64,000 bases of DNA from Tetmemena sp. SeJ-2015. Taxonomy: Eukaryota > Ciliophora > Spirotrichea > Sporadotrichida > Oxytrichidae. The stretch covers positions 124,001 to 188,000 of the forward strand of contig JAJKFJ010020979.1 in NCBI GenBank assembly GCA_027382625.1, written 5' to 3'. Positions 19,242 to 62,443 of this stretch are shown here, piece after piece. Every line of letters starts with the position of its first letter. Position 1 is the first letter of the stretch. The notes under the pieces are model-generated. The model was given only the letters and a program-made list of their open reading frames with translations. It did not search any database and was not told the DNA's origin. A program made the translations under genes and the position numbers.

Positions 19242-21802
19242 TGGAAATTTACTAAAACAAAAAGCTTAAAAGTTTTATAAGCACTTTCTATACTTAATGA
19301 AGACTAAAATACTGAACTAAATACCTATAAAGATTAAGACTGAGTGATCTAAGGGTTGAAATAACAGAGAATAACAAAAGAATCTCTATAAAATTTTCAT
19401 AAAGTTATTAAATTGATTTCCATTTAAATTTGAGGAATGCTAAGAAGACATAGTGATTTGCTGTTCTGCCAAATGATTGGTTTAACTTGCAATAACTGAT
19501 GCAGGAAACTTAAATTTGCCACTTTTCAAAGTTCCTCCTTATGGAGTTTTAAGCTTTTACTATACAACGGGTGGCACTAAGTCTGAGCTCTATTTCCTAG
19601 GTGCCAAATTTGTTTGCTCTTTAACTTAAAATACCACAAATATAATTTACATATATAATGACTTGCAAAGACTCTTTAACCTCTTCTTCTTTTTCAGAGT
19701 CGACATCGTTAAACATTAAGTTAGGATCTGAGAGAGACCTTTTGAATTTGCTTACATTAGCTGAAAGTTTAAAGAAATATTTCCTTCTCTTTTTAATTAA
19801 AGAAAGGTCGTCTGACTTGTCCTGATCTTAACTTTTATCTTGAAGATTAAAATTCATGACATCCTTTTGATTCTTTCTGAAGTCTCTCGGGTTATTAATT
19901 TGTCCCTGAATGAAGTTCAAATTAAGATCCCTTTCTATCGACTCGTCATCTCCCTCTAAGTTGAACAGCATTTTATCCTACTTGGCTATTGAACTGATAT
20001 TGATGTTGTTATCAAAAGTAGTACCATTAACTTTCTTCAGACTATCTAGCATCCCTAACTCTTACTTAAACGAGTCAACTCAATTAAAATTGCAAGAAAT
20101 TCTATATTTTCAACAAGTCAAACATATTCTGATTGTTAGAATTGCTATTACCTGCTCCCATTCCACCTAGTTGAGACTGCTAGAAACCCTTGCTATTTGC
20201 ACTGTTGCGGTGATTATAACTTTTCTTGGTAAGAGTGAAATTAGATTTACTGTTCTAGCTGCTCTCGTTGTGATATACTGCCTAGTCAAGTAAGTTGCAA
20301 TTTGAGCCTTGACCTTCATTATCATTTTTCTGGAGATGAGCATCGAATTCTTGGTTGCTGAACATGAAATCATTAAGCTGTGGATCATCAGCGTCTGGTT
20401 CAGTGTTAATTTAAAGCTGGCTCGGAGCATTTTTATTGGCAAAGGCAGAGCTATTATGAGTGTGATCAATCTAACTAGATTGGTATTGCTTAGAAATTGA
20501 TTCATTCTGGAAGCTGGTTATGTTCTAGGGATCAGTCGGCTGGTTTTAATTATTCCTCAACTAAGATTGGAGAGTAGGCTTTAAAAAAATAAAGTTGGCT
20601 GAATCTCACTCTAGGAAAGAGAAGACTCAGTTTGAGTCACTTCATCAGTTATATTTTGTTCAAACATCTCCACTCGCTCTCTTCTGTGAATAGCGTGCAT
20701 ATTCAGTCTGGGGATAGGAATCTTTCTGTCCATCACTTTCACTATTATCACATCATTTTAGTTGACTCTTATTCGATTAGAGTTTGGAAGAGCCTAAATC
20801 ATGGATAGTTGACTGCTGCCACCAGAGTAAAGATTTTGATTGCCAATAAGTTTATTCCTACTGTGATCTATTGAAGATCCTAGGATTGGCTCACCATTGA
20901 AATTTTCAAAAACCATGATGTTCTAGCCAGTGGCATTGAATCCATCATCATGAGTCTTTTTAAACTCCTCATTCATTAGGAATCCTGAAAACTCGTTTGA
21001 AAAGTTAATCTCATTAGCTTCTTTAGATTCCTTTTCTAGATTCTAGTTTAAGTTTCCTAGCATTTCAAGGTCTGCATCAATTGAGTTATTACTGAAGTCT
21101 AATACTGGATTATTATGATTTTCGTGCTCTTGATTTTACTGAGTGTTTTTAATTTTATCAATTTCAGCCAAGTTTATCTTCTTAGAAAGAGGCTTGATGT
21201 TGTCAATTCTTTGGAGACCGGAGTTCTTGAGCATTTTTTCTCTTTCAAATATAATTTGCTCCCTATCGTTAATTAGCAAGATTTAAGTTTAATATATCGC
21301 TAGGGGAACCACCATAGTCTCTATTAGCATGGCCTTTTAAGTCCTGGGGTGAGATCCTATCTTGAATCTCTAGTAGATTTCTAAGGCTCTATTTTGAGCC
21401 CTCTGTGAGCTGCGCCTCCTCTAGAGAATTCATTCCCTGTCCTAGTTCTAAGCCATTCTTGAGTAAATTAAGAGCATTGCTATTTTTCTTGCCATCCATG
21501 ACTAGCACCTAGTTTTAATCGAATTCGTAGTCTACTGACTCTTCAGTGATGTCTATCATACGATCGCAAGGCTTAGAGCTCTGTTTGCAGCTTGATGAAG
21601 ATGAATCTTGGTGATCGTTGGAATCTGCGTTATTTATAAAAGCTCTATCCATCTCCTATTCATCATCGTTTTCTATTTAAACAAATATTAGCTCTTATAT
21701 TTCACAAACCTCTTCATCTTCTCTATCAGGTATGAACTGAGACTGCTTTCAAAATTTAAATAAGCTTAAAAGAAATCTTTCTTTTTATTAAATTTTTTCC
21801 AT
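19242..21802 (-). CDS. Asn/Ser/Glu-rich hypothetical protein, possibly 5' part of the preceding gene
   Basis: Likely start is ATG 21802, followed by an IES with a TGA. Then come acidic blocks ('SQFIPDREDEEVCEIQELI', 'RMIDITEESVDYEFD'), a long Asn-rich part with 'VLDFSNNSIDADLEMLGN' and 'NIMVFENFNGEPILGSSID', a basic strand 'VKVMDRKIPIPRLNMHAIHR', and 'KRSLSDPNLMFNDVDSEKEE'. Reliable coding ends near 19420 and the next in-frame TGA is at about 19242. No domain recognised. It is probably intrinsically disordered. The near-repeat of 'LSDPNL' with the downstream block suggests both belong to one transcript. Confidence 0.5.
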
Positions 21803-50621: not shown

Positions 50622-53202
50622 TCAAGATGATAGTGATTAATTTAATCCCAGGTTAATTAAAGTTACATTAGATCTCAGAAGTAATCTTAAATAACGAATC
50701 TAAGTAGTGTGCCTAGTTCTTATTGCTTTTCGATGAGATACTATAATAAAATAGTTATATATTTTGCTCTAAAGAATGAGGTGAGAGTCATCAGAAATAA
50801 CCTCCTCACCTTTAGTGTTACACTTTAAAACTCCAAACTTGCTCTCCCTCTTAAGTGCAAACTTTTGGAAAAATTTTTTCTTCTAAGAAGCAGCCTCCTT
50901 CTTCTCGCTATTAGTTTTTAATTCACTCTTTACGCTATTCAAGAAAGTTAATTTTTATCCCTTAGGTAGATTTGGAGTGCTTTTGCAAGAAATATTATCT
51001 GCGTCCATGCCTAAATCTGAGGCCTAGTTTTATAGAATCAGCTGAGTTTGATCTAAACCCTACTTTTTTGTCAGACCTCTCATTTTGACCTATTGCACGC
51101 TTTATCTAAATAATATGAAACGCAATATATCTATTGTTGCCATTTACCAGTCGGAGGTTATTGTTCTACAGACTTGAAGGTATAATGCTTTGCTATTTGA
51201 AATTTAGTTCTTCGAGATCAAAAGACTGATTTTACTTGAAAATAATCGTGCTGTTATAATGATCTAAGGAGGTATTTTAATTTCTTTCCTTATTTACCGG
51301 GGGAGCTATCTAGACTCTCTTGAACATTTTTGCCGTAATTTAAATTAGAAATGTTTAATGATAAAATTTCCTCTTGTGTATACTAAGCTTTGCAAGCTCA
51401 AGACTAGTTCTTGTCTCGTAAATATTGTAGTTACTGTCGCTGCTTTGGTAGTTTTAATAGGTGTTTCAACCTTCTGCTGATTTGCTCTGTTCAGATACTT
51501 CAAAATTATAAGAATAAGTAAGAAAATGCTTTAAAAGCTAAATGACTGGGTTTTCAATCAAGTGTTTGGAAACTTTGGTTTAACCAGAGACTCTATTCTT
51601 ATTGCTTAACAAGTTATTAGCCGAGCCGTAGCCTTGTCTCAATGACTTTGAGGTGAAGCCAGTGACAACTGTAGATTCCTCATTATCAAAAGTGGAAAGA
51701 CTCTGTTCATTTGGTTTGAAAGAAGTCTTTGTCTCCTCACTATCGAAAGCAAATTGCGACAATTAAGTCTTTTTCTTGTCGGCAGTGTGAGGAAGAAGTT
51801 AAGAGTGAACACTCATTCGTTCATTAGCTGTGTCTTTTGTTGCTTAAGAAATCTAAGAAGTTTCCAAGGGATCTTAGAAATGCTGAAGCCTCTACTCGAC
51901 ATTGAAGGAACTTTTCAAATATGGGTGGTAGAGGAGGTCCTCTGCAGAGCTTCTATTTACCTCCTCAGTTTGCAGACACGCCTAAATTAAATGAACAGCC
52001 TCTGGAGTGATCATTAATGTTTGTCTGAAATCGTATTTCCCAGTTATCATATTCGCTTTAAATTAATCAACCCTCTTGGCATAAAATGGTGAAAATCCCA
52101 CCATGAGCTCATAAAAGATAGTACCTAAAGCCCAAATGTCAAATTTTATTGAATAATTCGAATCGCTGTTTAAGTACTGATTGGGTGCCATATATGCTGG
52201 TGTGCCGCAAATAGTTTTCTTTCGAGTAAAGTCTTAGTTACCGAGCAGTCTAGCGAACCCGAAATCAGAAATTTTTATTTCAAAGTCACCCTTAGTGAAA
52301 TCAAACTCTTTCAAAAAGGTCGATCTCTTTTCTTTTGAACAATCCAAGAGCCATTATTCAGCTGGAAAGTGCAGTAATATATAAGAGACTATTATATCGA
52401 ATTTAAAATTGAAATATGTTGGCAAGTTTAAGATCTCTGTGAACGACTTATTGTCTGTGGATGTCGTAAACTCCAACTATCAACTGCTTTAATATTGCTC
52501 TAGCTTGTGGCTCAGGCAGTGACCTTCTTAAATTAAGCAAATTTTGCAAGTCACCTCCATTACAAAGTTCCGTGATGAGATAATGACACTATTTGCCTTT
52601 CATGGCTTTGAGCATCTTAATTGTGTATTAAGATTTCACGAGTTAAAGGCAAATTTACTATAAATTATAGAGAGTAAAAAATAAAGACACTCCAGGCTCT
52701 TGTATAAATTTGGATTTCATATAGTTGAAGACTCTCCTTTATTTAATGAGCTCTCCTTCTTCCAGGATAGCTCTATTTTCATTTTCATCTTCTTCCGTGT
52801 CGTTTCTTCTCGTATTTCTTGCATCATAGTCCAATTTATATAAATATATATTAATTCATCCAACTTTAATTTCTTGGTTGCGGGAGATGGTGAAAGATCT
52901 CTTGTCTTTTTCCTCTAAAGTGGGTGTTAGTTTTTTTCCTTGTTGACTTATTTATTACTATCTGGATCTTGCAAGTCTAAGATTTTACAAGCATACCTTG
53001 TCTGATCCAATTGATTTACTTAGAATGCTGGGTAGACAAAATAAAATTTTATCAGCTATATACTCTCTATAATTAGCTAATAGACTTGCCCATACTTTCC
53101 TTTTCCGAGGAACTTAGTGAAATCAATGGTGTATTGACCAATTGTTCTGTAATTTTTGTCGGCATTTATTTGCTGTTTCAATTGCTTCTCTTAATTTTTC
53201 AT
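50622..53202 (-). CDS. ULK/ATG1-like protein kinase (copy 2)
   Basis: ATG 53202 ('MKNQEKQLKQQINADKN'). Kinase motifs: 'FLGKGKYGQVYQ', 'TRYACKILDLQ', '[17 protein letters not shown]', '[11 protein letters not shown]', 'EIKISDFGFARLLGN', 'ICGTPAYMAPNQYLNS', 'IKFDIWALGTIFYELMVGF'. An insertion separates the catalytic loop from DFG, as in copy 1, and a similar leader precedes it, so the two are paralogues in tandem. Here A-P-E reads A-P-N. The tail is Ser/Thr-rich ('EETKTSFKPNEQSLSTFD') and ends in a Lys-rich part. IESs or introns lie near 53050, 52950, 52650 and 52390. The TGA at 50622-50624 closes the last open frame, but composition weakens after about 50760, so the true stop may be earlier. 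Confidence 0.8.
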
Positions 53203-53758: not shown

Positions 53759-55560
53759 ATGGACAAGTCTTATAAGATTTAGTCTGTTAAAATTTAGCAG
53801 CACTATCTCAACTTGGGAAAGGCAACCCATTGCTCTATGGGATTTCTTATTCTCTCGATTGCAACCAACTCTGTGCAGAATGCTCAGTCTCAAGCCATGT
53901 CTAATGACGATTTCGATCAACTGGGCAATTACTCATTGGCTCTTCTTTACCTTACTCTTGGTTTTGGCTGTTTAATTGCTACCGCCATTATGGGAAAGAT
54001 AGGAGTCAAAAAGAGTTTATGAAACAATTAGAATTTAAAGTTTAATGTTGGGAAGCTTTTGCGACACTCTTTGGATTCTCTGCTCACTCCCACCAGCCTT
54101 CAAGTCCTAAAATCCAGACTCAGATCTCTTTGTTTACTCTAATGGATTCATTTATTTCACTTAGCTTTTTGCTTCAGTACTTGATGGGTTTGGTGACGCG
54201 GTTCAATGGGTCGCTCAAGGAAAATACATCTCCGACTGTGCAACTGAGAAAACTAAGGGATTTTATTTCAGTTACTTCTGGACTTACTATATGTCATCTC
54301 AAGTCTTCATTATTGGATGAGAGAAAATTTCTAACATTCCAGTAATTATGGCTGCTGTATCTTCTTCATCGATACTGATATTTGCCATCTTATGATATTC
54401 TCTAACCTAGAATTAGATCTGAAGATATCATGCCACTTAAATTTAATGCTGAGAGCGCAGTTTAATAAGATTCTAATTCTAATCAATTTGTTGATGACGG
54501 AGATAATTATGACTCTCTACCCTTCTGGGAAGAGGTTAAAGCTATACTTCAACTCCTCACCACGAAGAAAATGATGCTGCTTCTTCCTCAAGTGTTTTGG
54601 ACTGGAATTTCTAAAAGTTAAAATTCCCATCATTACAGATACGATTCCTGGAAACGATGATTAGGACAAGTTTATGAAGTCCATGTTTGCGATGGTAGCT
54701 TTAGGAGTTGGCGAAATGGTGGGAGGTCTATTTATCGGTTATATTATCGATAATTTTGGAAATCGGATGGCTGCCGTGACTAACATTATCCTAATTTTAA
54801 TACAAACAGCAATAGTTATAACCTACATAGTAATTTACGAGTATTCTTGGCTTGCTTTTCTGATGACGTTTGTGTGGGGATTCTAAGATAGTGCGAATTG
54901 CACGCATACCTCTGAGATGCTCGGCTTTGAGTTTTAAAATCACTAAATATAGACAACCTCGGGCAAGCTGTGGGAACCTTCGCTTTCGAAATTATTGAAG
55001 CGTATATAGATAGGAGACAGCGTTACCTAGTTTTCAATATAGTGGTCGGAGTTTTAGGAGTGGCCTTTAACGTCACCACAATCTTCTTCAAATTTAAACC
55101 CATGTATCATGAAGTCGCAGGATCTGAAGGCCAGGAAGGATAAGAAGTCAAGAGATCCTTGATAAGAGGAGATATTAATATACTTATTACTAGAAGAATA
55201 TGATGCAAGTCTATGAAAGGTGAGGACGATAGCTAAAAGGCAGATCCGAATGCAGACGAACAACTCGCTAATTTAATTTTTTCTTCCGAATTTGATAATT
55301 TATTTCTTTTATTGAAGATATTCTCAAGTCTTTGGCAACTTGATAGCAGCTTTCCTTTTAAAGTACTTCGATCAGTCTACCTTTTTCCTAATTATGGCTT
55401 ATTTTTTTAAAAACTTTTGCAACTTTAAGAAAGCCTGTTCTCTATGTATTCAATAAATAACTGATGATCCTAGAGGCCATGCTGAGAGAGAGAAAATTAT
55501 TATAATTTAGTTTTGACTGGAATAAGCTTGGCTGTTTACACAGGATTACTTGTTCCCATC
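53759..55560 (+). CDS. UNC93-like MFS transporter, copy 1, scrambled germline gene
   Basis: ATG 53759 starts a 12-helix UNC93-type protein: 'GKATHCSMGFLILSIATNS', 'TLGFGCLIATAIMGKIGVKK', 'VAQGKYISDCATEKTKGFYF', 'PQVFWTGIS', 'MFAMVALGVGEMVGGLFIGY', 'FLMTFVWGFQDSANC', 'AVGTFAFEIIEAYIDRRQ', 'VVGVLGVAFNVTTIFFKFKP'. An IES with pointer AGTTTA (54014-54019/54039-54044) removes a TGA. Three family segments are missing from their place: the 'SQVFGNLIAA' helix, the 'LRKP' loop and the 'GISLAVYTGLLVP' strand. They are found at 55322-55560, and each is flanked by pointers matching the gap edges. An 8-bp irregularity at 54937-54948 also needs removal. The C-terminal tail ends near 55203-55270. UNC93 proteins are MFS relatives; transport substrate unknown. 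Confidence 0.85.
54014..54044 (+). repeat. IES in UNC93 copy 1, AGTTTA pointer
   Basis: AGTTTA at 54014-54019 and 54039-54044. Deleting 25 bp removes TGA and joins 'GVKKSL' to 'MLGSFCDTLWILCS', as in the paralogues. Confidence 0.8.
55322..55399 (+). other. Displaced coding segment (MDS) A of UNC93 copy 1
   Basis: Begins with TCTCAAGTCTT, which is identical to 54297-54307, and ends with TAATTATGGCT, which is identical to 54343-54353. Between them it encodes the conserved 'GNLIAAFLLKYFDQSTFFLI' helix. Replacing the 35-bp gap 54308-54342 with this segment gives a continuous frame aligned with the three paralogues. Confidence 0.9.
55416..55444 (+). other. Displaced coding segment (MDS) B of UNC93 copy 1
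   Basis: Pointers TTTGC (54381-54385 and 55416-55420) and TTCTCTA (54398-54404 and 55438-55444). It inserts the 'ATLRKPV' loop in frame between 'SILIF' and 'LQPRIRSEDI'. The gap it fills (54386-54397) is only 12 bp. Confidence 0.85.
55515..55560 (+). other. Displaced coding segment (MDS) C of UNC93 copy 1
   Basis: Pointers GACTGGAAT (54600-54608 and 55515-55523) and TTCCCATC (54624-54631 and 55553-55560). It supplies 'ISLAVYTGLLVP' between 'FWTG' and 'IITDTIPGND', as in copies 2-4. Confidence 0.9.
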
Positions 55561-55664
55561 GCATTTTGTGCATATCCCTAAAATTAACACTAAATATGGA
55601 ATTAGTAATAGCTGTTTGAGTTTGACAAATTTATTTTTAAAAAAAAAAGAGTAAATATATAATT

Positions 55665-55960
55665 TGAATTAAATAACAACAATTCTTAGCCGTATTCCAT
55701 AGACAAGTAATCTTAGAATAATTATTAAAGGAGATATAAGACTCAGGAAGCAATCTTCTTTATTTAATAGCACGAAACAATCCTTCCTAAAAGGTCAGGC
55801 AGGAGGCAAGTACTTAAATAAGCATATATCGATTTGTATAACTCGCTAAGTTCATAGACTGAGAACGTCATCAGCTAAGTTCATAGCTACAATTCTAATG
55901 AAAGTAACACAATAAAGATCAAACTATAACAATAAACCATCAAATATTATTATTTTCATA
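55665..55960 (+). CDS. Coding-like stretch of unknown assignment
   Basis: An open frame of about 95 codons rich in Asn, Gln and Ser with a basic middle ('SQNNYQRRYKTQEAIFF', 'ILPKRSGRRQVLKQAYIDL'). Gln is largely encoded by TAA/TAG, which is typical of real coding here. It has no clear start or TGA. It may be another displaced segment, or the tail of the UNC93 copy 1 gene. Confidence 0.35.
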
Positions 55961-56172: not shown

Positions 56173-57937
56173 ATGTTAATTAACCAATTACGAAATTTTC
56201 AAAATCTGAGTAAACTGACTCACTTGTCAGGAGGTATTTTACTAATGTATATTGCCTTTAACTCTGCTTCAAACCTTGAGTCACTTATTATGGATACTGA
56301 TGGCTTTGGAAAATTAGGCTATTATATTCTAGCAGTTCTCTATCTTTTTATGGGCTTTGGAAGTATACTTTCCACAGCTATTTAAATTGAATAAGAGAAA
56401 ATAAATTTTATGCTATGATAAACAAGTATGGATCAAGAAATTGCTTGATTGCTGGAGGGTTGGGTAATGTTCAGTGGATTCTAGCTAGCATATTTGCAAC
56501 AGAGTAAGAGAGGAGAGTAAATGAAGATCTTTAGTCTGATCCACTGCTTTGGGTCACCGTTCTCTTATTTATCTCTACAATGATAAATGGACTTACTGTT
56601 GGCATTTTATGGTCCTGTGCAAATAATTTCGTGGCTAGATGCGCTAGTGTAGAGTACAAGGGTTTTGCATTTAGCTTTTTTTGGACGTTCTATATGACCA
56701 GCTAAATTTTGGGAAATTTCATAGCCTCTCATGCTTTAAATAATTTGAGCTAAACTTCTTTCTTCCTTATTATGGGTGCAATCGCAGCAGCTGGTACATC
56801 AATTTTCTATAAACTAGACGAGCCTAATTTTGCAAGTATAAAGAATCATTTGGAGGAGTCAGAAGCCAAGCATTTTGTAAGAGAAAATATTAAGTAATTA
56901 GAAGAAGACCAACGGGAAGCAAGATAGAATAATTTAAACGATCAAAATCCGAAATAGTGTTTAGAAGAAAACTCCTAAAATACAAAGTAAGGAGAGAATG
57001 ATAAGAATCAAGAGCAGAACTACGAAATTGAAATCGAACTTCCAAGAAGTCAGTAAGACCGTGATGATATAGATACGATGGATACGAGCAGATGTCACGA
57101 GCAAAATTAGTGTAGGGATAAAAGCGAGATATAAGAAACATTCAAGTAGGATGTTAAGCTTGTCTTTCAATACTTAGTAGACCCTAGAATGAGATATCTT
57201 ATTCCTTAAATTTGCTGGACTGGCATTTCTATTGCAGTCTATACTGGTTTGTTAGTTCCTACCATGGTTTCTACTCTTCCAGACATGTCAGAGCAAGAAT
57301 AGTTCAAATACAGCATGTCTGCTATGGTAGCTTTAGGCTTTGGAGAAATATTTGGAGCTCTAGTTCAAGGCCGTATCGTAGATAAGTACGGGTCTAAGTA
57401 AACCTGCCTTTTTAATGTTGGTCTAATATTGGTGGCAACGATGATAGTTTTGAATTATATCTATCTCGACACCTTTTCGTTATTTGCTTATGTAATGACT
57501 TTCATGTGGGGTTTTTAAGATAGTGCAATAAGTGTGCACTTGAATTCGGTGCTTGGGTTTGAGTTCGATGATGGACCAGGTCCCTTTTCTCTTGATTCCT
57601 TACTTGAAGCTGCTTTTGTTTTCTCTTTCTAACTTATTCAGTCTTTTGTTGTGAGTTGGGAAGCTCACTTCCTTTACATTTCAGCCATCGGAGTTTACTA
57701 TAAAATAGATATAATACAATATAATGAGTGATAGGGATGGGAATGTGCTTGGTCTCATTCTACTTTGAGTATAGACATTGCATGAGATCTCCAAAGCATG
57801 GAACTGAGAGTATATAGAATGAAGGATTAGCTCTTAATAAATAAGGGAGGTCCGATTCTTCCCAGACAATTTTAGATAAGAAGAAGCCCTAGAAATAAAT
57901 ATATCACGAGGAAGATGGAATCAAGCTTGACGACTGA
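56173..57937 (+). CDS. UNC93-like MFS transporter, copy 2
   Basis: ATG 56173 to TGA 57935-57937. Collinear with the family: 'SGGILLMYIAFNSASNLESL', 'VLYLFMGFGSILSTA', 'INKYGSRNCLIAGGLGN', 'FWTFYMTSQILGNFIAS', 'FFLIMGAIAAAGTSIFYKL', a long charged cytoplasmic loop (about 110 residues, Glu/Gln/Asn-rich), 'PQICWTGISIAVYTGLLVPT', 'MSAMVALGFGEIFGALVQGR', 'YVMTFMWGFQDSAISVHLN', 'LGFEFDDGPGPFSLDSLLEA'. Only two IESs were found: GCTAT (56377-56381/56412-56416) and GAGT (57691-57694/57726-57729). The C-terminal tail is polar and ends 'EEDGIKLDD'. Gln in 'SQILGN' and 'WGFQDSA' comes from TAA. Confidence 0.9.
56377..56416 (+). repeat. IES in UNC93 copy 2, GCTAT pointer
   Basis: GCTAT at 56377-56381 and 56412-56416. 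Removing 35 bp joins 'SILSTA' to 'MINKYGSRN' in frame. Confidence 0.75.
57691..57729 (+). repeat. IES in UNC93 copy 2, GAGT pointer
   Basis: GAGT at 57691-57694 and 57726-57729. Removing 35 bp (with a TGA) joins 'YISAIGV' to 'IGMGMCLVSFYFEY'. Confidence 0.75.
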
Positions 57938-58170: not shown

Positions 58171-60565
58171 ATGAAAGAGGAGAAACTTTCAAACATTCTC
58201 ATTCCCAAAGATGAGAGTTTAAGCACCACCTACAATACGCATTCTAGAATAGAGAAGAAAAATGATGGCAAGAAAGAGATTAATGATTATCTCAACTTTA
58301 AGAATGCTTTAAAAATATAGACATAAACAAAAAATTATTTAATTATCTTAATTTTAATTTTTAAATACCGAGAGGGTTATTATAATAAGGAAGTTACAAA
58401 AAGCTTAAAATTATATTAGTTTAAGTGAAGTAAACATGGTCTAGATAAATCTATATTTGTCATCATTATTTAAAGTTGGAGGAAAAATATTAATATTTTG
58501 ATATTGAATAAATTTTGAAATTTTCAAATCAATTCTAACCTTGAATAGCCAAAAACTGGCTTGAAGCTATATTTCCAATTTTAGTTTTTTAATAAAAAAC
58601 ATAGATAATTACTTTAAATATTTTTTGCTTTCATGTGTTCTCTAGCATTCTTGGGGTTGTATACAGCAATTTACAGTGCCTAGAATATATAGTCTGTTGT
58701 GTTTGAGAAAGATCAGTATGGTGAGTTGGGTTTCTATTCAAATGCGGTAGCCTACCTCTTCTAAGGAATAGGAAGTGTGTTTTGCGTATTTATCTAAGAC
58801 AGAATAGGTGACATTAGGACAATGAGATATATTTTTATTATAAATGGCATGGGGATCGGTGTTAAACATCCCTTTCATGCTGATTTTGATTTTCCCAGCT
58901 CTAAAATCCGAGGATCTTACCAGCTAAAACTTTTTCCTTTCAAAAGGCTTTGTATATACTGTGATTAATAATATGCAAAGTAAATTTTATGATTCTCCTT
59001 GGTTCGGTGTCAAATGGATTTGGGCAAGGAATATCTTAACCGAGTTCGGGAACTTATATCTCTGAATGCGCCACAGAGAGAACTAAGGAATTCTTATATT
59101 TAATCTCCTAAGATTTATTTTTATTTAATTCTATTTCGCTTTTTATTGGGCGTTTTATATGGGATCCTAAGTATTTGGAAACTTGATCGCAGCCTTCGTA
59201 CTTGGTGAACTTGACTAAAAGTATTTCGTACTAGTAAAATTAATTAGTTTATATTATAATAACTAGTAATGGCAATTATTGGAATCGCATCCTCCATCCT
59301 TCTCTTCTTTTTAAAAAAGCCTAAAATCCAGCATCTAAATAACAATGTGCCCCATTTTAGTAAATTTATCTTCATGATCATCACTTTCATAAGCCAGAGG
59401 ATGAATCTGCAAAGCTAGAAAACATATTAGCATATTTTTTTATAATTTAACATTCCTGAAGACCTAAACGAGCATGAAGTTGATTCTAATCTTTTGCACG
59501 TAGTAATAAATCTTAAAATTGTCCATTCTTTGACAATAAAATATTTGTAAGGAAGAGTTATGGAGATGTGAGGAAAAGTCAGGGAGAATCAAGAAGGTCA
59601 AACAGGCATTCAATGCCTCCTGTTAAGTAGTCAATGCGATCTTAAAATCCAGAAACAAACAACAAGCTTACAGTTAAGGAAGCAGTAGTTTCAATGTGGC
59701 GCTTCTTTGCCAATAAAAGATTCTTGATGCTTGCTCCTCAGTTGTTTTGGACGGGCATGAGTATTGCATACTATAGTGGAAACTTAGTAGAAATGATGTC
59801 AGATGCCCTAGCACAAGAAGGGAAAGACGATCATGAAAAAATAATACCAAATTATTTTATAATGAATAGTTCAAGCTCTCTATGTTAGCAGAAATAAATT
59901 TAAATATATATTTTTAAGAGTTAGCTATGGTTTTATTTGGAGTGGGAGAAATTTTTGGGTGCTTCTTTATTGGCTATATAGTAGATCACTTTGGAAGTAA
60001 AGTGGCAACAATTTTCAATTTAGGAATCATAGCACTAATGGGAGGTACTACTATGGCCTTTATATTCATTTATGATTTCAACTGGCTTGCTTTCTTTATG
60101 TGCTTCATGTGGGGCTTCTAGGACAGTGCAATTAACACTCACTCTTAAGAAATTCTAGGGTTTGAATTCGACAATAACGCAGAGCCATTCTCAGTCTATA
60201 ACATCCTTCAGTGCGTAGCATGCTTTGGATTCTAATTGATTGAGGCCGCAGTTAATGACAGAGAGGGCTATAAGTGGTACACTCTATAATTAATGTCATG
60301 GTTTTTATTTCAAAACTAAATTATATCTATTACAATAATTGGACTGATATTCTGTGGATTACCATACTTCTTTGATTTTAGAGAAGAAGTAGTATCAGAG
60401 AGTAAAAGAGTCTCTGTTGTTCTCTCGGACTCTGAGTAGTAGACAAACTAATTCCAAAAGTCTCAAGTTGAGTCAGAACCAAATCAAAGATTTTAGGCGG
60501 GAATTGGATCAGTGGCTTCCTCACTAGATAACTCCAAGATGTTCTTTAAGAAGGTTGCCGTCTGA
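58171..60565 (+). CDS. UNC93-like MFS transporter, copy 3
   Basis: ATG 58171 opens a polar N-terminus, interrupted from about 58310 to 58610 by AT-rich sequence. Then follow 'FLGLYTAIYSAQNIQSVVFE', 'YGELGFYSNAVAYLFQGIGS', 'GTYISECATERTKEF', 'FYWAFYMGSQVFGNLIAAFV', 'LGELDQKYF', 'LLFFLKKPKIQ', 'LAPQLFWTGMSIAYYSGNLV', 'MVLFGVGEIFGCFFIGYIVD', 'FFMCFMWGFQDSAINTHS' and 'PYFFDFREEVVSESK', ending at TGA 60563-60565. IES pointers: AATTCT (59089/59127), ACTAGTAA (59230/59262), TTAGC near 59890-59920. A G run at 58851-58854 is one base too long for the frame. The segment around 59000-59040 replaces the usual 'LWVAQG' with unrelated residues, so a further rearrangement or decay there is possible. Confidence 0.85.
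59089..59132 (+). repeat. IES in UNC93 copy 3, AATTCT pointer
   Basis: AATTCT at 59089-59094 and 59127-59132. Removing 38 bp joins 'ATERTKEF' to 'YFAFYWAFYMGSQ', matching 'KGFYFSYFW' of the paralogues. Confidence 0.8.
59230..59269 (+). repeat. IES in UNC93 copy 3, ACTAGTAA pointer
   Basis: ACTAGTAA at 59230-59237 and 59262-59269. Removing 32 bp joins 'DQKYFVLV' to 'MAIIGIASSILLFF' in frame. Confidence 0.8.
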
Positions 60566-60915: not shown

Positions 60916-62443
60916 ATGAAAGCCCCTTTAAATCAGGACGACTATTTATAAGTGTCGCAATCTGATTCATATAAGATCAAAAGGAAGAGGAAGTATACAA
61001 ATATTTGTCAAGTTACTTAGATCTCTCTTGGATTCTTGTTCCTCTACATTTCCTTTAATTCTACCTAAAATTTAACCTCAATCCTCCTAGACTAAGATGG
61101 GTATGGAAAACTAGGATTTTACTCATTAGGGGTCCAAGCCATTTTTCAAGGTATAGGCTCTCTTTTATCCTCTGGAATTGTCAATAAACTAGGACTTCTC
61201 AATCATTATTTTAATTTAGACTTCGTACAAGTATGGTTGTGGGTGCTCTCTTCAATTCATCATGGGTCCTTTAAAGTCTGATACCTGCAGAGAAGTTTTA
61301 CAATCCAGATTCAGATTTTTGGGCTTATAGTGAAACATTTTACTATGTCATTAACATCATAACTTCTGCAGCAAGTGGCTTCATGGGTTCCATTCTTTGG
61401 GTAGCAGAGGGAAAATACATATCTGAGTGCGCTACAGATGAGACAAAAGGCTTCTACTTTAGCTACTTCTGGATGTTTTACATGCAGAGTCAAGTATTTG
61501 GAAACTTAATAGCAGCTTTGGTGTTAGGTGAGATGGACTAGATAAGTTTTTTCATTATCATGTCTGTTATCGCGTTTGCTGCCTCAATAAGTTTCGCTTT
61601 CTTAAGAAATCCAAAACCATAAACTGAGGTCGAAGCATCGAATTAAATAACTTTAAAGTTTGTTTAAATTTGGTACCTCAATATGTAGAAGACGAAAATT
61701 AAATCAATGTATCACAAAACAGAAGATCAGAATTGACAAATACTGGGCTTGAGGAAAGCAAGTAGCTGAGAGAAAAAGGCTTTTGGAAAGATGTAAATAG
61801 AGTTTGGCTTTTGCTAATTTCTAAACGAATGCTGCTATTCTTACCTCAATTACTCTGGATCGGAGTCAGTATAGCCATATTTTCAGGTCTATTGGTTAAC
61901 ATCATTCAAGTTTCCTTGACTGATGTTGAAGACATAAATAAGAGAAATGAGAAGTCTATGCTTGCTTTAGTGGCCTTTGGGGTGGGAGAAATTTTCGGGG
62001 CTATGATCATTGGTTAAATTGTAGATAGAATGAATAGCCGAATAGCCTCTCTTTTCAACGTTCTTTTTGTTTTTCTAGCAGCAATTTTGACAATAGGATT
62101 CTTATACTGGGAGTAATACAATTGGTTCACTTTTGTGATGGCTTTTTTCTGGGGACTCGAGGATGGTTCAGTGAACACTCATGCGCTTGAAATGCTCGGC
62201 TTTGAATTTGATGATAATACAGATCCTTTTGCAATTTTCAGCATGTTTGAGGCTTTTGCTGTATTCATTTTTCAACTAATTCAAAGCAGAGTAGATGACC
62301 GCGATAAATACTTTATTTATATCGGAGTGACAGGAGCTCTTGGATGTTTTATGTGCGGAGCAACTTACTTCTTTGATTTCAAAGAAAAGAGAGCTCTAAG
62401 AGCTAATAAAGAAGGGGAGAACTCGAAGTTTGTGTTAGAATGA
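60916..62443 (+). CDS. UNC93-like MFS transporter, copy 4
   Basis: ATG 60916 to TGA 62441-62443. Collinear: 'QISLGFLFLYISFNSTQNLT', 'DGYGKLGFYSLGVQAIFQGI', 'ILWVAEGKYISECATDETKG', 'FYMQSQVFGNLIAALVLGEM', 'FAFLRNPKPQTEVEASN', 'LLFLPQLLWIGVSIAIFSGL', 'SMLALVAFGVGEIFGAMIIG', 'VMAFFWGLEDGSVNTHALEM', 'LGFEFDDNTDPFAIFSMFEA', 'ATYFFDFKEKRALRANK'. IES with pointer GACTTC (61193-61198/61219-61224) and one after 'EASN' near 61650-61680. Here 'W-G-L-E-D-G' replaces 'W-G-F-Q-D-S' of copies 1-3, so it is the most divergent copy. The N-terminus is basic ('SYKIKRKRKYTN'). Confidence 0.9.
61193..61224 (+). repeat. IES in UNC93 copy 4, GACTTC pointer
   Basis: GACTTC at 61193-61198 and 61219-61224. Removing 26 bp restores 'VNKLGLRTSMVVGALFNSS'. 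Confidence 0.8.

Follow-up and report, generated by a model that had tools for sequence, protein, structure and literature searches.

In the consulted part of PMC5940158, the discovery of scrambled genes is dated to 1992; in the consulted part of PMC9797194, 13.6% of the genes of Tetmemena and 15.6% of those of Oxytricha are reported to be scrambled. In the odd-even genes of Oxytricha trifallax and Tetmemena, as they appear in the available sections of these two papers, segments alternate between two clusters, share identical short pointers, are separated by spacers that are discarded, lie in co-oriented clusters (M1M3M5 M2M4 type), and have local paralogues. In the portion of PMC5940158 consulted, this layout is termed a 'repeat word' and is one of two pattern types that, in combination, account for 96% of scrambled Oxytricha chromosomes. 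The duplication-and-decay model (Gao et al. 2015, as described in the relevant part of PMC9797194) predicts that the lengths of spacers and MDSs are correlated; in the same account, sequence similarity between spacers and MDSs is reported for young Euplotes loci and is unclear in older hypotrich loci.

The window analyzed here, a stretch of 64,000 nucleotides, derives from an assembly that comprises 146 Mb in 5,213 contigs and contains an array of four UNC93-like copies. We are nearly certain that copy 1 is the germline (micronuclear) form, with odd-even scrambling, of a gene for an UNC93-like transporter in a spirotrich ciliate. It shares the features listed above for the Oxytricha trifallax and Tetmemena genes and, as far as the consulted parts of the two papers describe them, does not differ from them in kind, except that its somatic order was deduced from the germline sequence and a foreign relative and that here one of four tandem sisters is scrambled. 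The locus is a further example of the canonical pattern already known from spirotrich micronuclear genes, and one more is to be expected from the shares of scrambled genes reported in PMC9797194. Copy 1 was resolved into 13 segments, all on the + strand, in the germline order 1-2-4-6-8-10-12 / 3-5-7-9-11-13. The 11 joins from 2/3 to 12/13 are scrambled, whereas join 1/2 is an ordinary IES. The parts of the locus are as follows.

53759..54019, + strand: MDS 1, with start codon ATG at 53759 and right pointer AGTTTA (54014-54019)
54020..54038, + strand: ordinary nonscrambled IES between MDS 1 and MDS 2, 19 bp between the pointers
54039..54307, + strand: MDS 2, pointers AGTTTA (54039-54044, left) and TCTCAAGTCTT (54297-54307, right)
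54308..54342, + strand: IES of 35 bp, exchanged for MDS 3
54343..54385, + strand: MDS 4, pointers TAATTATGGCT (54343-54353) and TTTGC (54381-54385)
54386..54397, + strand: IES of 12 bp, exchanged for MDS 5
54398..54608, + strand: MDS 6, pointers TTCTCTA (54398-54404) and GACTGGAAT (54600-54608)
54609..54623, + strand: IES of 15 bp, exchanged for MDS 7
54624..54930, + strand: MDS 8, pointers TTCCCATC (54624-54631) and TTTGA (ambiguous; the alternative AAAT puts the end at 54940)
54931..54948, + strand: IES of about 18 bp (8 bp with AAAT), exchanged for MDS 9, missed in the preliminary description
54949..55175, + strand: MDS 10, pointers ATAGACAA and AGGAGATAT
55176..55204, + strand: IES of 29 bp, exchanged for MDS 11, containing TGA at 55201-55203
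55205..55271, + strand: MDS 12, pointers GCAAGT and AACTCGCTAA
55272..55321, + strand: spacer of 50 bp between the even and odd clusters
55322..55399, + strand: MDS 3, displaced (first piece of the preliminary description), pointers TCTCAAGTCTT (55322-55332) and TAATTATGGCT (55389-55399)
55416..55444, + strand: MDS 5, displaced (second piece), pointers TTTGC (55416-55420) and TTCTCTA (55438-55444)
55515..55560, + strand: MDS 7, displaced (third piece), pointers GACTGGAAT (55515-55523) and TTCCCATC (55553-55560)
55663..55706, + strand: MDS 9, displaced, newly traced, encoding NNNNSQPYSID, right pointer ATAGACAA (55699-55706)
55663-55667 or 55671-55674, + strand: left pointer of MDS 9, TTTGA or AAAT, respectively
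55729..55811, + strand: MDS 11, displaced, newly traced, pointers AGGAGATAT and GCAAGT
55840..55862, + strand: MDS 13, displaced, newly traced, pointer AACTCGCTAA, with stop codon TGA at 55860-55862

The preliminary description had reported the three displaced pieces MDS 3, MDS 5, and MDS 7, bounded by six repeat pairs that match the edges of gaps of 35, 12, and 15 bp. All six pairs (joins 2/3 to 7/8) were exact at the positions it gave, the same gap lengths were measured between the repeats, and insertion of the three pieces with one repeat copy per join produced a single open frame through the stretch, as it had stated; the frame was broken in the sole construct in which the spacers were simply deleted. 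Its account of the extent of scrambling held for these three pieces and their six junctions but fell short of the full count, which is six pieces and eleven scrambled junctions, and it had also overlooked the body piece at 55205-55271 and the stop codon at 55860-55862.

When the 13 segments were placed in numerical order, a single frame of 530 residues was obtained with TAA and TAG read as Q and TGA at 55860-55862 as the stop. In spirotrich ciliates TAA and TAG encode glutamine and TGA is the stop codon; both TAA and TAG occur in frame in copy 1, and its terminator is TGA, as in spirotrichs. The frame remained open with either candidate pointer at join 8/9, and its length was 531 residues when AAAT was used. 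Of the 720 possible orders of the six displaced pieces, 8 kept the frame open, the numerical order among them. The G+C content was 21% in the 12 spacers (416 bp) compared to 39.5% in the segments. The 3′ end of the predicted somatic molecule lies to the right of MDS 13. By eye, GCTAAGTTCATAG was seen twice around the stop codon (55845-55857 and 55874-55886); this pair could have arisen by chance, be a repeat of the 3′ UTR, or represent a further pair of pointers.

The order of the segments was judged against a contiguous relative. A first reconstruction of 483 residues served as the query in a homologue search in which the 8,000 candidates sharing the most words with it were scored. Twenty proteins matched, 7 of which are named 'major facilitator superfamily protein [Stylonychia lemnae]', and the best match was P0001, a protein of 466 residues with 80% identity over 87% of the query. 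P0001 was drawn from a protein collection and belongs to another organism; from its number range we take it to be an Oxytricha trifallax protein, and it is presumably encoded by a macronuclear gene. The same query matched the Pfam UNC-93 family (PF05978) with E 1.8e-26 and 93.6 bits against a cut-off of 22.9. P0001 passes uninterrupted through the first three displaced pieces in their predicted order, and, measured against this contiguous protein of another organism, the segment order of copy 1 departs from the gene order.

P0001 also exposed the faults of the first reconstruction, in which the 8 bp after GFEF had been cut out as an ordinary IES and the protein ended at the TGA at 55201-55203. 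The alignment contained a six-column gap after GFEF, most of DNNSQPYS was missing, and the C-terminus was different; because of the gap and the different C-terminus, this reconstruction was abandoned in favor of the 13-segment map. When both strands of the window were searched for the missing residues, the top score, 44, was obtained at 55675, where NNNSQPYSI is encoded (context FELNNNNSQPYSID), followed by the sister copies 3 and 4 (38 and 29) and then by noise at 25. A tblastn search with P0001 returned a weak match at 55718-55828 (39% identity, E 0.03), from which MDS 11, MDS 12, and MDS 13 were delimited by eye. Among the 40 matches listed per strand in a k-mer search for a fourth displaced piece, those on the + strand came from the region itself and those on the opposite strand were noise, and two candidates for such a piece chosen by eye, 55286-55300 and 55615-55640, were dropped, as neither encodes the missing residues. 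The TGA at 55201-55203, which lies within the IES exchanged for MDS 11, mimics a stop codon when the scrambling is overlooked. An annotation of the germline sequence would thus err at copy 1, with a false stop at this position and a wrong C-terminus.

The product of the final map aligned with all 466 residues of P0001 over its residues 47 to 530, with 76% identity and 22 gap positions. The join 8/9 pointer is ambiguous in this comparison: TTTGA yields GFEL and one extra residue, whereas AAAT yields GFEF and two extra residues. Identical residues numbered 60 of 77 aligned (82 in total) in the displaced pieces and 268 of 346 aligned (361 in total) in the even body pieces, and we conclude that the two sets are equally conserved relative to P0001. 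MDS 1, which was excluded from the body count, had 39 identities in 41 aligned residues (of 87). The C-terminal pieces aligned less well (12 of 20 residues for MDS 11, 7 of 17 for MDS 12, and 1 of 3 for MDS 13); the reconstructed protein terminates in DEQLAKFID before the stop, and P0001 terminates in DQGAKLIE. The odd-even reading offered in the preliminary description is thus supported by the presence of the displaced segments at their predicted places in P0001, by the three further segments traced through that protein, each with its own repeats, by the low G+C content of the spacers, and by the same architecture in the sections of PMC9797194 and PMC5940158 consulted.

The repeats at the scrambled joins measured 11, 11, 5, 7, 9, 8, 5 (or 4), 8, 9, 6, and 10 bp from 2/3 to 12/13, those at 9/10, 10/11, 11/12, and 12/13 being ATAGACAA, AGGAGATAT, GCAAGT, and AACTCGCTAA. 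The chance level for each join was estimated at 20,000 random places in the window, along three in-frame diagonals. The individual chance probabilities ranged from 0.0001 to 0.14, and the combined Fisher probability for the 11 scrambled joins was 2e-16. Three joins depend on short repeats of 5, 5, and 6 bp: the two 5-bp repeats, at 4/5 and 8/9, were not significant singly (p 0.13 and 0.14), and the 6-bp repeat at 11/12 had p 0.03. When the whole displaced block was slid to 5,000 random offsets, the repeat total averaged 37.6 with a maximum of 76, compared to the observed 89. Jointly, the pointer repeats of copy 1 are well beyond chance.

The assembly was searched for a re-sorted copy of the gene. 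A 33-base sequence across the 2/3 join had no match in the 146 Mb with up to 2 mismatches, a 34-base query across the 6/7 join hit nothing but the displaced germline piece, at one mismatch, and a DNA search in which 1,801 bases of the locus were the query recovered the locus itself only; no re-sorted copy-1 gene was present among the matches. For this reason descrambling in this species is something that we infer rather than something seen. In the proposed scheme, the germline layout comprises segment 1 with the start codon, the even segments in order, and, directly downstream in the same order and orientation, the odd segments 3 to 13, the last of which carries the stop codon. As the somatic nucleus forms, the end of each segment would pair with the identical pointer on its numerical neighbor, the spacers would be discarded, and one pointer copy would be retained per junction to give a contiguous gene encoding the 530-residue protein. 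That the cell performs this joining is expected from established knowledge of spirotrichs, including the roles of template RNA and transposase as presented in the consulted part of PMC9797194.

The other members of the array were fitted to relatives under a model that allows deletions in germline order only, so that a fit shows the sufficiency of such a reading and not the reality of each gap. Their matched parts are listed here.

56179..57916, + strand: copy 2, fits the germline order
58633..60529, + strand: copy 3, fits the germline order, with many IES-like gaps
60952..62428, + strand: copy 4, fits the germline order, with two IES-like gaps

Since copies 2, 3, and 4 all fit the plain germline order with IES-like gaps, one of the four tandem sisters appears to be scrambled. 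Several of the gaps in copy 3 depend on short repeats of 3 bp. The linker gap of copy 2 is probably a length variation because it was placed differently with two relatives. One IES-like gap of copy 3 (59230-59269, with the 8-bp repeat ACTAGTAA at 59230 and 59262) overlaps the position of the 3/4 scrambled join of copy 1, and by eye an IES-like gap lies near the 1/2 join of copy 1 in both copies 3 and 4. We do not claim an overlap of IESs with scrambled joins because a single overlap is about the chance expectation by rough, uncomputed estimate.

The lengths of the spacers bear on how the arrangement arose. Ten spacers share their flanking pointers with the segment that they replace, and in this comparison, devised after the map was made, spacer length followed the length of the exchanged segment (rho 0.85, permutation p 0.0013, n = 10; rho 0.84 with the other 8/9 pointer). 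When the set was split, the correlation was 0.9 (p 0.04) for the five body gaps and 0.7 (p 0.19) for the five gaps of the displaced cluster. Sequence similarity within the ten pairs gave p 0.04 for the total local score and p 0.48 for the total global score, with single-pair values from 0.008 (D4, global) to 1.0 (G7, local). The length correlation and the tandem paralogues are shared with the duplication-and-decay model as set out in the consulted part of PMC9797194, whereas the spacer-MDS similarity of young Euplotes loci is unclear here, as in older hypotrichs.

We judge it as likely as not that the locus arose when one member of the UNC93 array was duplicated head to tail, the two copies having decayed reciprocally, segment by segment, into the 13-piece odd-even gene while the three neighboring sisters with ordinary IESs stayed ordered. 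If this is correct, the array would provide a compact before-and-after set for the onset of scrambling. An origin by the alternative 2005 model cited in the consulted part of PMC9797194 is possible, but we lean against it: the unclear residual similarity between spacers and segments (the divergent global and local values for the ten pairs) would suit it, while the correlation of spacer length with that of the exchanged segment is what the duplication model predicts. The same length relation would also suit two tandem copies decaying reciprocally without remaining in use, that is, a decayed gene with deletions in its body next to the fragments of a decayed second copy, and duplicates and relics are to be expected given the four array copies and the many UNC93-like matches in the genome. 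Such a broken duplicate is nevertheless very improbable here, as each body gap is filled edge to edge, identical repeats stand at 11 junctions, the 530-residue frame is intact, and the two sets of pieces are equally identical to P0001, which is unexpected for a dead pair. Still harder to credit is an assembly artefact in which reads of two alleles or paralogues were misjoined, since a single locus of such identity was found in the assembly and misjoining would not be expected to equip six separate pieces with identical short terminal repeats and keep them in order.

The locus is useful in three respects: its 13-segment map can be derived from the germline sequence and one foreign relative, it lies in a tandem array of which the other three members fit the germline order, and its spacer lengths are relevant to the duplication-and-decay model. 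A literature search, with subscription journals largely outside its coverage, found no paper joining UNC93, scrambled, and ciliate; the locus itself may thus be undescribed. A phage search with the region gave no match, as expected.

Across the genome, at least 78 UNC93-like matches with E up to 0.001 were found on several contigs, counted per matched stretch and with the array included, and among the matches listed the identity to P0001 was at most 54% outside this contig. The matches L004-L006 and L009-L013 lie on contigs C3300, C854, C3260, and C1937. Apparent tandem arrays of UNC93-like matches occur on C1937, C854, and C3260, and the sets on C854 and C3260 are nearly parallel; these two contigs perhaps represent two haplotypes or a duplicated array. 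Among ten long frames elsewhere in the window, 2 had a Pfam match, 1 of them above the cut-off. A frame at 51469-52479 on the − strand of the window encodes a protein kinase domain, PF00069 in Pfam (E 3e-24).
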